Position numbers and translations under genes: made by a program
Source: a bacterium
GTDB lineage: Bacteria; Cyanobacteriota; Vampirovibrionia; Gastranaerophilales; Gastranaerophilaceae
Reading direction: 5' to 3'
Length of the DNA stretch: 49,151 bases
NCBI GenBank assembly: GCA_017409065.1
Contig: JAFQTK010000153.1
Coordinates: 1-49,151 of the forward strand
The notes under the pieces: generated by a model
Databases searched by the model: none
What the model saw: only the letters and a program-made list of their open reading frames with translations
Told to the model about the DNA's origin: nothing
Shown here: positions 42,573-45,696 of the stretch, piece after piece
Position numbering within the stretch: the stretch's first letter is position 1
Layout: the number at the start of each line of letters is the position of its first letter

Positions 42573-42821
42573 ATGAGATTTAATAAAAAAGCAGCACAAA
42601 GTTTAATTGAATACGGATTAATTTTAGCACTTGTAGCAGTTGTGGCTATTGCGGCGTTACAAATACTAGGTCAAAGAGTAAATAATGCAGCAACAACTGC
42701 AGGTGAAAATATTGAAGCAACATCGCAAAATGCTGCTCAAGCATATTGTCAATCTATTAACGGACAATGGAATGCTGAAACAGGTGTTTGTACTCCGGCT
42801 GCTAATAACGCAGGGGAATAA
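42573..42821 (+). CDS. Flp-type (tight adherence) pilin
   Basis: An 82-residue protein with a short basic leader (MRFNKKAA) followed by QSLIEYGLILALVAVVAIAA, the Flp pilin signature with the conserved E and Y after the cleavage site. The expected processing is by a prepilin peptidase just before the QSLIEY segment. The C-terminal part has a Cys pair (AYCQSINGQWNAETGVCTP). It is longer than the shortest Flp pilins but within range. A GAGG Shine-Dalgarno, a sigma-70 promoter and its own terminator mark it as a single-gene unit. No tad genes are adjacent. Confidence 0.85.
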   Translation: MRFNKKAAQSLIEYGLILALVAVVAIAALQILGQRVNNAATTAGENIEATSQNAAQAYCQSINGQWNAETGVCTPAANNAGE

Positions 42822-42843: not shown

Positions 42844-42870
42844 AAAGCCTCTTTGTAAAGAGGCTTTTTT
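42844..42870 (+). terminator. Terminator of the Flp-type pilin gene
   Basis: AAAGCCTCT (42844-42852), TTGTAA, AGAGGCTTT (42859-42867) followed by T. Its loop TTGTAA (42853-42858) is also the best -35 for the next gene. Confidence 0.88.
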
Positions 42871-42880
42871 AGTATATAAT
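42853..42880 (+). promoter_or_regulatory. Promoter giving a leaderless ldpA-like mRNA
   Basis: TTGTAA (42853-42858), 16 bases, TATAAT (42875-42880). The last base of the -10 box is seven bases before the ATG at 42887, so the predicted transcript begins at the start codon. No Shine-Dalgarno is present. Confidence 0.6.
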
Positions 42881-42886
42881 TCCAGT

Positions 42887-43807
42887 ATGAGTAATTTATC
42901 TTTTGATACTGAAAAATATTTTAAATTAGTTCTTGGACTTGGAAATTGCTCGTTAGATAATATTGAGCAATTATGTAATGTATATGCTCAAGCAGGTGCT
43001 GATATATTTGATTTGAGTCCAAATATAAAATCATTAAAAGCTGCACAACTTGGTGTTAAAAAAGCGGGTCTAAACCCGTATGATTTTAAATATTGTGTTA
43101 GTTTTGGGGTAAAAGGTGATTCTCACATAAAAAAAGCACAAATTAACACAAAAAAATGTAAACGATGCTATAAGTGTGTTTCAAAATGTCCACAAAATGC
43201 TATTGTTATGGGCGAGAATGGATATCCAAAAGTTCTTACTGAAAAATGCATAGGCTGCCGTAGATGTGAAAAAAGCTGTATAGATTTTCATGATTACGAA
43301 GTTAATATCAAGGATACGGCAAAAGATTTCAAAGGTGAAAAACTCGATATTGTTGAGCTTCACATATCATCATTAAACAAAAAAGATATTTTCAAAAAAT
43401 GGGAAACTATTTTAGATAATTTTGACTGTCAAAAATCCATATGTATAGATAGGAGTAAGTACGGAACAGAAAAACTGATTAAACTTGTCAGAGAAATGAC
43501 AAAGCTAAATTCTGAGCCTACAATTATACAGGCAGATGGAGTCCCAATGAGTGGAATGGAAAGTTTGCCTTGCACCTTACAGGCAATTGCTCATGCTCAA
43601 ATTTATAAAGATTTGAACATGCCAATATTTATTTCAGGTGGAACTAACTCATTCACAAGAGAATTAGCAGACAAATTTGAAATCAGCTACAACGGAATAA
43701 CTATTGGCTCATATGCCAGAGCTATTGTAAAAGATGCTATAACTTGCGGGGACATAAAACTTGCAGTAGAAATAGCAAAACGGCTTGTTGATAATGTGAA
43801 AAACTAG
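42887..43807 (+). CDS. LdpA-like protein with two 4Fe-4S clusters
   Basis: A 306-residue protein. Two bacterial ferredoxin-type cluster motifs are complete: C91-x2-C94-x2-C97-x3-C101-P and C121-x2-C124-x2-C127-x3-C131. The N-terminal part (KLVLGLGNCSLDNIEQLCNV, YAQAGADIFDLSPN) and the C-terminal barrel-like part (ISGGTNSFTRELADKF, NGITIGSYARAIVKD) follow the layout of LdpA of cyanobacteria, a redox-sensing protein feeding the circadian clock. In a non-photosynthetic relative its role is presumably general redox sensing or an enzyme activity. It forms an operon with tilS and hpt, with gaps of one base. Confidence 0.7.
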   Translation: MSNLSFDTEKYFKLVLGLGNCSLDNIEQLCNVYAQAGADIFDLSPNIKSLKAAQLGVKKAGLNPYDFKYCVSFGVKGDSHIKKAQINTKKCKRCYKCVSKCPQNAIVMGENGYPKVLTEKCIGCRRCEKSCIDFHDYEVNIKDTAKDFKGEKLDIVELHISSLNKKDIFKKWETILDNFDCQKSICIDRSKYGTEKLIKLVREMTKLNSEPTIIQADGVPMSGMESLPCTLQAIAHAQIYKDLNMPIFISGGTNSFTRELADKFEISYNGITIGSYARAIVKDAITCGDIKLAVEIAKRLVDNVKN

Positions 43808-43808
43808 T

Positions 43809-45152
43809 ATGATTAACGCACTTAAAATATTTTTAAAAAATAATGCTTTATATTCTCAAAATGTGACTCTATTGGTCGGATTTTCAGGAGGATTTGATTC
43901 TTGTGCTTTGCTGCACATGTTGTCTGTTTTAAAAAAAGAAACAAACTATACACTTTGTGCTGCACACTTAAACCACGGTTGGCGTGCCGATTCTGCAGAT
44001 AATGATGAAATTAATTGTTCAGAATTTTGCAAAAAACACAATATAGAGTTCTATACGGAAAAATTAGGGAATGACATTCCTCAGACTGAAACCGCTGCAC
44101 GAGAAGCTAGATATAAATTTTTTGAACGGGCAGCAAAACACTTTAATACAAATATTATACTAACAGCACATACTAAGTCTGATAATGTTGAAACCTTGAT
44201 ATATAGAGTAGCTAAAGGCACCGGTATCTACGGTTTATGCGGGATTGAACCTCAACGTGAATTAAATGGTTTGCAAATTTTTCGTCCATTACTATCTATG
44301 TCAAGACAAGACATAGAAAATTATTGCCAAAGTAATGACCTATCGCCAAACAATGATGAAAGTAATTTTGATATTAAATATAAAAGAAATTTTATAAGAC
44401 ATCAAATAATTCCACAACTTAAAAAAATTAACGATAATGCAGAGTCGGCAATTAACACACTTATAGAAAATGCGGTTTCGGACAATGCTATAATTAATGA
44501 ATATTTGCAGCAAATAAAACAAACAATATCAATTGAAAATAAATATCTAACACCCAAATTTTTGGAGCAATCAAAAGAAGTTCAGCAAAGATTAATTTTA
44601 GATTTTGTGACTGAAAAAAAACTTGATTATGACAAAAATAAAATTCAAGAGATACTAACTTTCATAAAAACAGCAGCAACCCATAAAGCAGGAAAAACTC
44701 TTTCGTTGACTTCCGACTTATGGCTCTTTTGTTCCGCAGCTGAGATGTATCCTATAAAAAATGAGATAAAGAACAACACTTACATAAAAATTACAGATTT
44801 AAGTAAAAAATATAAAATCGATAATTTTGAATTTAGTGCTGAACCATGTGACATTCGACCAAAAGATTTTCCGCTTGAAAACGAAAATTATGCATATGTA
44901 GATTTATCAAATCAAACAAATTTGGAAATTAGGTACAGAAAAGACGGTGACAGGATTCAACCATTTGGGATGAAGAACTCTATAAAACTAAAAGACTTTT
45001 TTATCAATAAAAGTATTCCACAACATAAAAAAGACAAGATTGTGTTATTATGTAATCAGGATGAAGTCCTTTGGGCATGTAACGTTGGATTAAATGAAAA
45101 ATTAAGAGTAACATCCAATCCAACTCACATCATAAGAATAGAAGAGGTTTAA
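43809..45152 (+). CDS. tilS: tRNA(Ile)-lysidine synthetase
   Basis: TilS adds lysine to C34 of tRNA-Ile(CAU), changing its decoding to AUA. The 447-residue protein has the PP-loop SGGFDS (26-31), the AAHLNHGWRADSADND segment, TAHTKSDNVETLIYR with RVAKGTG, and the C-terminal TilS domain (FGMKNSIKLKDFFINKSIPQ, then LWACNVGLNEK-like text near the end). It starts one base after ldpA and ends one base before hpt. Confidence 0.95.
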   Translation: MINALKIFLKNNALYSQNVTLLVGFSGGFDSCALLHMLSVLKKETNYTLCAAHLNHGWRADSADNDEINCSEFCKKHNIEFYTEKLGNDIPQTETAAREARYKFFERAAKHFNTNIILTAHTKSDNVETLIYRVAKGTGIYGLCGIEPQRELNGLQIFRPLLSMSRQDIENYCQSNDLSPNNDESNFDIKYKRNFIRHQIIPQLKKINDNAESAINTLIENAVSDNAIINEYLQQIKQTISIENKYLTPKFLEQSKEVQQRLILDFVTEKKLDYDKNKIQEILTFIKTAATHKAGKTLSLTSDLWLFCSAAEMYPIKNEIKNNTYIKITDLSKKYKIDNFEFSAEPCDIRPKDFPLENENYAYVDLSNQTNLEIRYRKDGDRIQPFGMKNSIKLKDFFINKSIPQHKKDKIVLLCNQDEVLWACNVGLNEKLRVTSNPTHIIRIEEV

Positions 45153-45153
45153 A

Positions 45154-45696
45154 ATGGTAGCTATTGACAAACAACTTAAAGATTTAACAGTACTTATTGA
45201 TGAACAACAAGTTTCTCAAGGAGTTAAAAAGATTGCAGAGGAAATAAACAATGCATTTCCTTTAGACGAAACCCTACATCTGATTTGCGTTTTAAAAGGT
45301 TCTGTTATGTTTTTTGTTGATTTGGTCAAACTGTTGAAAATGCCGACCCAGTTGGAATTTATAAGACTTTCAAGCTACGGCGATGACGATAAATCTTCAG
45401 GTCGGGTGAAATCAATAGACATGAACCTGCCAATATTGGAAGATAAAAATATTTTGATAGTTGAAGACATTGTCGATACAGGTTATACGGCTCAATTCTT
45501 AACAAACATTCTTAAAGCAGAACAACGGCCGAAAAGACTTAAGTTCGCAGCATTTCTCAACAAAGAATGTTCCAGAAAAGTGGAATTTCAACCTGACTTT
45601 TACTCATACATAGTTGACGATAAGTTTTTGGTCGGTTACGGTCTTGATTATAAAGGCTACTACCGAAATTTACCGTATGTTGGCTATTTTTCTTAA
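45154..45696 (+). CDS. hpt: Hypoxanthine phosphoribosyltransferase
   Basis: Hpt salvages hypoxanthine and guanine with PRPP. The 180-residue protein has the PRPP-binding motif ILIVEDIVDTGYT (100-112), the flexible-loop RLSSYGDDDKSSG, VLKGSVMFFVDLV near residue 47, and the VGYGLDYKGYYRNLPYVG end. The tilS-hpt order is widespread in bacteria and supports both calls. A GAGG lies before the ATG. The 3' end overlaps the convergent ald by four bases. Confidence 0.95.
   Translation: MVAIDKQLKDLTVLIDEQQVSQGVKKIAEEINNAFPLDETLHLICVLKGSVMFFVDLVKLLKMPTQLEFIRLSSYGDDDKSSGRVKSIDMNLPILEDKNILIVEDIVDTGYTAQFLTNILKAEQRPKRLKFAAFLNKECSRKVEFQPDFYSYIVDDKFLVGYGLDYKGYYRNLPYVGYFS

Follow-up and report, generated by a model that had tools for sequence, protein, structure and literature searches.

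The window that we analysed is the whole of a 49,151-nucleotide stretch of DNA from a member of the Gastranaerophilaceae (Cyanobacteriota). Near its end, at 42887-43807 on the plus strand, an ATG-started open reading frame encodes an LdpA-family protein of 306 residues and heads a short operon with tilS and an hpt-type gene. The homology, cluster motifs, predicted fold, distribution, conservation and operon structure given here are computational results. The features of the locus are as follows.

42844 to 42867, listed on the minus strand: terminator-like hairpin AAAGCCTC-TTTGTAAA-GAGGCTTT, between a pilin-like ORF and ldpA
42853 to 42858, plus strand: -35-like hexamer TTGTAA with a 16-nt spacer, situated in the hairpin's loop region (consensus match only)
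42875 to 42880, plus strand: -10 hexamer TATAAT of a leaderless-type promoter for ldpA-tilS-hpt; 6 nt separate it from the ATG (sequence, spacing in relatives)
42887 to 43807, plus strand: LdpA-family protein, 306 aa, predicted (beta/alpha)8 barrel with an inserted 2x[4Fe-4S] ferredoxin module
43157 to 43189, plus strand: first 4Fe-4S motif, C91-X2-C94-X2-C97-X3-C101 (sequence, alignment)
43247 to 43279, plus strand: second 4Fe-4S motif, C121-X2-C124-X2-C127-X3-C131 (sequence, alignment)
43337 to 43741, plus strand: LdpA_C domain (PF12617), residues 151-285, barrel strands 4-8 (Pfam, alignment, model)
43809 to 45152, plus strand: tilS, tRNA(Ile)-lysidine synthase, 1-nt gap after ldpA (ORF list, Pfam)
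45154 to 45696, plus strand: hpt-type phosphoribosyltransferase, 1-nt gap after tilS (ORF list, Pfam)

A leaderless start of the ldpA-tilS-hpt transcript, as the first-pass annotation had proposed, is predicted from this promoter and is well supported, because the same spacing recurs in relatives. In a survey of 739 ORFs from 80 named loci, TATAAT ended 6 nt before the start codon in 20 cases and 7 nt before it in 4, whereas any other spacing below 13 accounted for 0-2; the cases in the peak include homologous genes, among them six tilS-linked ldpA genes. Before the ldpA of relatives the spacing is 6 nt in L071 and 7 nt in L074. The hairpin at 42844-42867 is followed by TTTAG on the plus strand. 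TATAAT also stands 6-7 nt before the starts of several unrelated genes (L172-L251), suggesting that leaderless mRNAs are common in Gastranaerophilales. Directly upstream of ldpA is an 82-aa pilin-like ORF (42573-42821, plus strand), which keeps the same place in L071.

The protein genuinely belongs to the LdpA family, of which it is a divergent but full-length member. Both 4Fe-4S motifs are intact: its eight cysteines lie in two CX2CX2CX3C motifs between the N- and C-terminal halves. In Pfam searches LdpA_C (PF12617) matches residues 151-285 with 50 bits (E 3.5e-13; cut-off 22.2), and generic 4Fe-4S models match as well. The top full-length match is the NCBIfam model ‘circadian clock protein LdpA’ (NF045992; residues 5-284, 94.8 bits), far under its equivalog cut-off of 450, which is also missed by some genomes of photosynthetic families (288-402 bits). 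The LdpA Fe-S profile PF25160 stays under its cut-off (16 vs 27.6 bits), as it does in L112, L007 and L123 (25.8, 21.9 and 26.8) from other non-photosynthetic lineages. The N-terminal half is nevertheless homologous to LdpA: NF045992 aligns from residue 5, and K13, G37, D42, S72 and H80 are common with the cyanobacterial rows. Cyanobacterial LdpA proteins align with it over the full length at about 25-30% identity, with tblastn E values down to ~1e-23. When a profile built from the fetched relatives was run on the ferredoxin-domain ORFs of the fetched loci, all LdpA proteins scored at least 258 bits and every other ORF at most 46, a gap which makes the homology firm and rules out a better match to another ferredoxin family.

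Thus the earlier recognition of an LdpA-like protein that keeps both cluster motifs and its flanking domains holds. The idea that this is instead an unrelated ferredoxin-domain protein, to which the low score with the LdpA-specific Fe-S profile might lend something, is already refuted by the profile, alignment and conservation results (LdpA_C over cut-off, the full-length alignment to cyanobacterial LdpA, the 258-to-46 bit gap and invariant residues shared with LdpA outside the Fe-S part), and we give it next to no credence. We assign the protein as an LdpA-family (PF12617) paralogue and do not class it as circadian clock LdpA, because it lies below both the equivalog and the Fe-S profile cut-offs and because neither KaiB nor KaiC was detected over cut-off in its genome.

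That genome (assembly of 2.18 Mb, about 90% complete) differs from those of cyanobacterial LdpA bearers in several ways. PsaA and PsaB were not found anywhere in it, so that the lack of photosynthesis genes first noted for the window extends to the whole assembly. Searches for KaiB and KaiC found no KaiB, and for the KaiC family only 54 bits against a cut-off of 408. Incompleteness could hide a gene, yet KaiB was likewise not found in any of the 35 other genomes of the same family that were searched. The gene at 42887-43807 also stands in a different operon from cyanobacterial ldpA, and a second, differently linked copy, 37% identical in protein sequence, lies on contig C83 of the same genome; this copy does reach PF25160 (34.6 bits vs 27.6). 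Most of the named relatives that we found are MAGs of Gastranaerophilales, often from the rumen or gut, which places the window in this non-photosynthetic order of Cyanobacteriota.

The second copy is of a HAD-linked type (L069 = G000:C83, L070, L130-L137) whose LdpA is 78-87% identical between genomes in which TilS is only 42-51% identical (87 vs 42% for G001/G308, for example); LdpA identity so far above that of TilS points to horizontal transfer among Gastranaerophilales. At L141, L143, L085, L164 and L165 ldpA clusters with HAD, 4-hydroxy-2-oxovalerate-aldolase-like and HpaI/GarL-like aldolase genes, together with acetolactate-synthase-like, epimerase and glycosyltransferase genes, a neighbourhood suggestive of sugar or surface-glycan chemistry.

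To the sequence homology the structural prediction adds a barrel. An AlphaFold2 model from a 58-sequence alignment (pLDDT 92.8, pTM 0.90) has eight strands in TIM order (11-15, 40-43, 68-74, 155-160, 182-188, 213-217, 247-250 and 270-273), with the dicluster ferredoxin module placed between strands 3 and 4 of the predicted (beta/alpha)8 barrel. Residues invariant in photosynthetic and non-photosynthetic LdpA alike are, in the Fe-S part, C91, C97, C101, C121, G123, C124 and C127 and, elsewhere, K13, G37, D42, S72, H80, E157, H159, Q215, D217, G218, G251-T253 and G274; those outside the Fe-S part lie at or just past barrel strands, except G37 and H80, and the polar ones among them mark the C-terminal ends of strands. 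LdpA_C thus contributes E157, H159, Q215, D217, G251-G252-T253 and G274, with R278 nearly invariant across the phylum. The best 50 matches of a PDB fold search were nearly all TIM-barrel enzymes, at TM about 0.4-0.5 and with no family standing out; direct PDB sequence searches with LdpA returned ferredoxin-module matches only, and no barrel relative. Radical-SAM activases, which also carry dicluster inserts and gave a weak score, were ruled out since the sequence has no CX3CX2C after strand 1.

Profile comparison suggests that the LdpA barrel is a distant relative of DUF561 (PF04481), the family of Ycf23-type proteins. The DUF561 profile matches LdpA N-termini in several genomes, although the protein at 42887-43807 itself misses the cut-off (14.5 vs 21.6 bits), and no separate DUF561 gene was found in its genome. 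Aligned with hhalign, phylum-wide LdpA matches DUF561 over the whole barrel (98.3% probability, E 2.5e-14) with the Fe-S insert as a gap, DUF561 having no ferredoxin insert; a Gastranaerophilales-only LdpA profile gives a weaker comparison (89.6%, E 1.9e-6). The K, D, S, E, Q-x-[DE]-G and glycine loop positions correspond between the two. When DUF561 itself was compared with the PDB, it matched barrels that bind FMN or phosphate, over their C-terminal halves (FabK, nitronate monooxygenase, glycolate oxidase, IMPDH; best E 1.7e-6). By way of DUF561, then, the C-terminal glycine-rich region of LdpA resembles that of FMN/phosphate-binding TIM barrels such as FabK, nitronate monooxygenase, IMPDH and type II IPP isomerase, with which LdpA also shares the barrel fold, although at TM about 0.5 the similarity in fold is generic and the resemblance to FMN-binding oxidoreductase barrels consists of fold and distant profile similarity only.

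We propose that LdpA is a redox-active (beta/alpha)8 barrel and probably acts as an oxidoreductase: the two [4Fe-4S] clusters of the module inserted after strand 3 would pass electrons to, or receive them from, a small ligand at the barrel mouth. The putative ligand, perhaps of phosphate or flavin type, could be held by the invariant K13, D42, S72, E157/H159, Q215/D217 and the SGGTN/GSYAR loops; binding, catalysis and electron transfer, in either direction, are what we infer from the model and the conservation. Photosynthetic cyanobacteria may later have recruited the same protein to feed redox information into the clock. Counting against this reading, the fold matches are generic and name no specific enzyme, the protein falls short of PF25160 and of the equivalog cut-off, and the DUF561 comparison weakens with Gastranaerophilales LdpA alone.

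The main rival to this proposal is that LdpA is a non-catalytic redox sensor, whose clusters sense cellular redox and whose barrel is a protein-interaction scaffold. This is how LdpA is usually described in Synechococcus, where redox is sensed via the Fe-S cluster (PMC13421787; PMC5520375), and the active-site-like conservation could also suit such a sensor. However, cysteines aside, conservation is highest at the ends of the barrel strands, in positions that match those of the DUF561 barrels, which have no clusters; this is the pattern expected of a ligand site. Furthermore, the genome studied here lacks KaiB and KaiC, the partners known for LdpA. We therefore regard a purely sensory LdpA as rather unlikely, though it deserves to be taken seriously.

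The distribution of the family bears on what LdpA did before any clock. PF12617 occurs in 286 of the 292 phylum genomes sampled and in 55 of the 59 relatives and, among 14 control genomes, only in Synechococcus elongatus; the genomes with no match belong to non-photosynthetic families (G101, G174, G203, G314) and to photosynthetic ones (G208, G283). In a sample of 146 genomes, PsaA/PsaB were present in 63, all of which had KaiB, and the remaining 83 included about 2 with KaiB over cut-off and 3 more that were marginal, with LdpA_C in nearly all. LdpA_C being near-universal where KaiB is almost absent, LdpA routinely occurs without a clock. KaiC exceeded its cut-off in only two of 29 relatives (G036 and G042), and KaiB was found in the non-photosynthetic G144 and G069. 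In G036 and G042, two non-photosynthetic genomes that also belong to Gastranaerophilales, kaiB adjoins kaiC (L067-L068, L279-L280).

Maximum likelihood applied to 95 LdpA proteins gave an unrooted tree in which a single clade (support 100/99) holds the photosynthetic sequences, save for one odd sequence from G261, and the deep branches mostly track lineages, so that the gene tree is largely vertical. At 9 of the 11 photosynthetic loci whose flanks were read (all except L095 and L103) the gene directly after ldpA encodes an R3H-domain AAA ATPase (R3H plus SpoIIIAA-like domains), and the same pair occurs in the non-photosynthetic families f3, f4, f9, f10, f12, f19, f20 and f26; it was not seen beside ldpA in the family of the genome studied here. 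A pair common to photosynthetic and non-photosynthetic lineages speaks for orthologous genes and an operon of long standing, and implies that LdpA probably predates their split and needs no clock.

The odd sequence comes from a family otherwise photosynthetic in our sample: the LdpA of G261 (L151/L127) falls within the Gastranaerophilales branch, together with the f23 type, and its gene adjoins HAD and aldolase genes. In G208, of the same genus, we found a low-scoring LdpA only (G208:C1:674032-674967).

The near-universal LdpA_C in Cyanobacteriota without PsaA and KaiB, the largely vertical tree and the shared gene pair together bear out the suggestion in the first-pass annotation that LdpA had an ancestral role before the clock. 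LdpA is probably an old gene of the phylum, older than Kai clocks and oxygenic photosynthesis, and its original job was probably not timekeeping, since it is found in nearly all clock-less relatives and has a predicted enzyme-like barrel. On the whole we lean towards the view that the protein at 42887-43807 is a divergent LdpA paralogue in a clock-less host, belonging to an old phylum gene for a redox-active barrel, probably an oxidoreductase, whose clock role was recruited later. The fuller proposal, that LdpA is an ancient phylum-wide Fe-S barrel enzyme, with a dicluster ferredoxin set in a DUF561-type barrel and once encoded with the R3H/AAA ATPase, and that clock input is a later recruitment of the redox or ligand state of this enzyme, we judge to be evenly balanced.

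Alternatively, the common ancestor may have had a Kai clock with LdpA, the non-photosynthetic lineages then losing the clock while LdpA persisted, either as a relic or because it had taken on a new task. The KaiB and KaiC of a few non-photosynthetic genomes (G036/G042, with KaiB in G144 and G069) speak for this, but these occurrences are sporadic, no relative from the family of the genome studied here has KaiB, and LdpA has been kept with intact cysteines across clock-less lineages, which is not relic-like; we consider this history improbable.

The gene order ldpA-tilS-hpt recurs at L071-L074, L076-L078 and L147-L150, and at 12 further named loci (L172-L182, L186) tilS follows ldpA, with hpt next except at L173 and L182. 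The tilS-linked LdpA proteins, drawn from several genera, are only 34-50% identical to the protein studied here, and those of their genes that were used in the tree all fall in one 16-sequence group (96/98), together with unlinked f6 genes. The operon is thus real but lineage-specific, limited to one LdpA subfamily within Gastranaerophilales. Most other relatives have tilS-hpt pairs without ldpA, and other Gastranaerophilales ldpA genes adjoin unrelated genes (HAD, aldolase, TPP-enzyme, glycosyltransferase). The description of ldpA as ‘fused’ into a tRNA/purine operon is correct as to co-transcription with tilS and hpt across the 1-nt gaps, but there is no fusion protein.

LdpA might still be a dedicated partner of TilS or Hpt that links the redox state to lysidinylation of tRNA(Ile) or to purine salvage; the tight operon, kept across several genera at such low LdpA identity, would suit this, as would the position of ldpA at its head, downstream of a leaderless promoter that recurs in relatives. 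However, linkage within one subfamily, where even the f6 genomes of the same clade lack it, the many tilS-hpt pairs without ldpA and the different neighbours of other ldpA genes leave unsupported any particular link of LdpA with tRNA or purine metabolism, and likewise a redox sensor so linked as a general role for the family. We find such a partnership very improbable; the operon gives co-expression with housekeeping genes, which does not imply a functional link.

One review presents LdpA as a clock input found only in cyanobacteria (PMC5520375). Reviews state that it senses redox by an Fe-S cluster and modulates CikA abundance by a mechanism that is unknown (PMC13421787; PMC5520375), and one of them still counts its mode of action among the unresolved points (PMC13421787). 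When Melainabacteria were described in 2013, homologues of RpaA, RpaB and NblS were noted, but not LdpA (PMC3787301). Our literature search, which omitted most subscription journals, found no report of LdpA with Melainabacteria, Vampirovibrio or Sericytochromatia, and none joining LdpA to a TIM barrel or to ycf45, although domain databases may already label the non-photosynthetic proteins automatically. If nearly all clock-less relatives do possess this enzyme-like barrel, then the biochemistry of LdpA would be open to study without the clock, and the conserved residues of the barrel mouth would offer direct mutational tests in Synechococcus.
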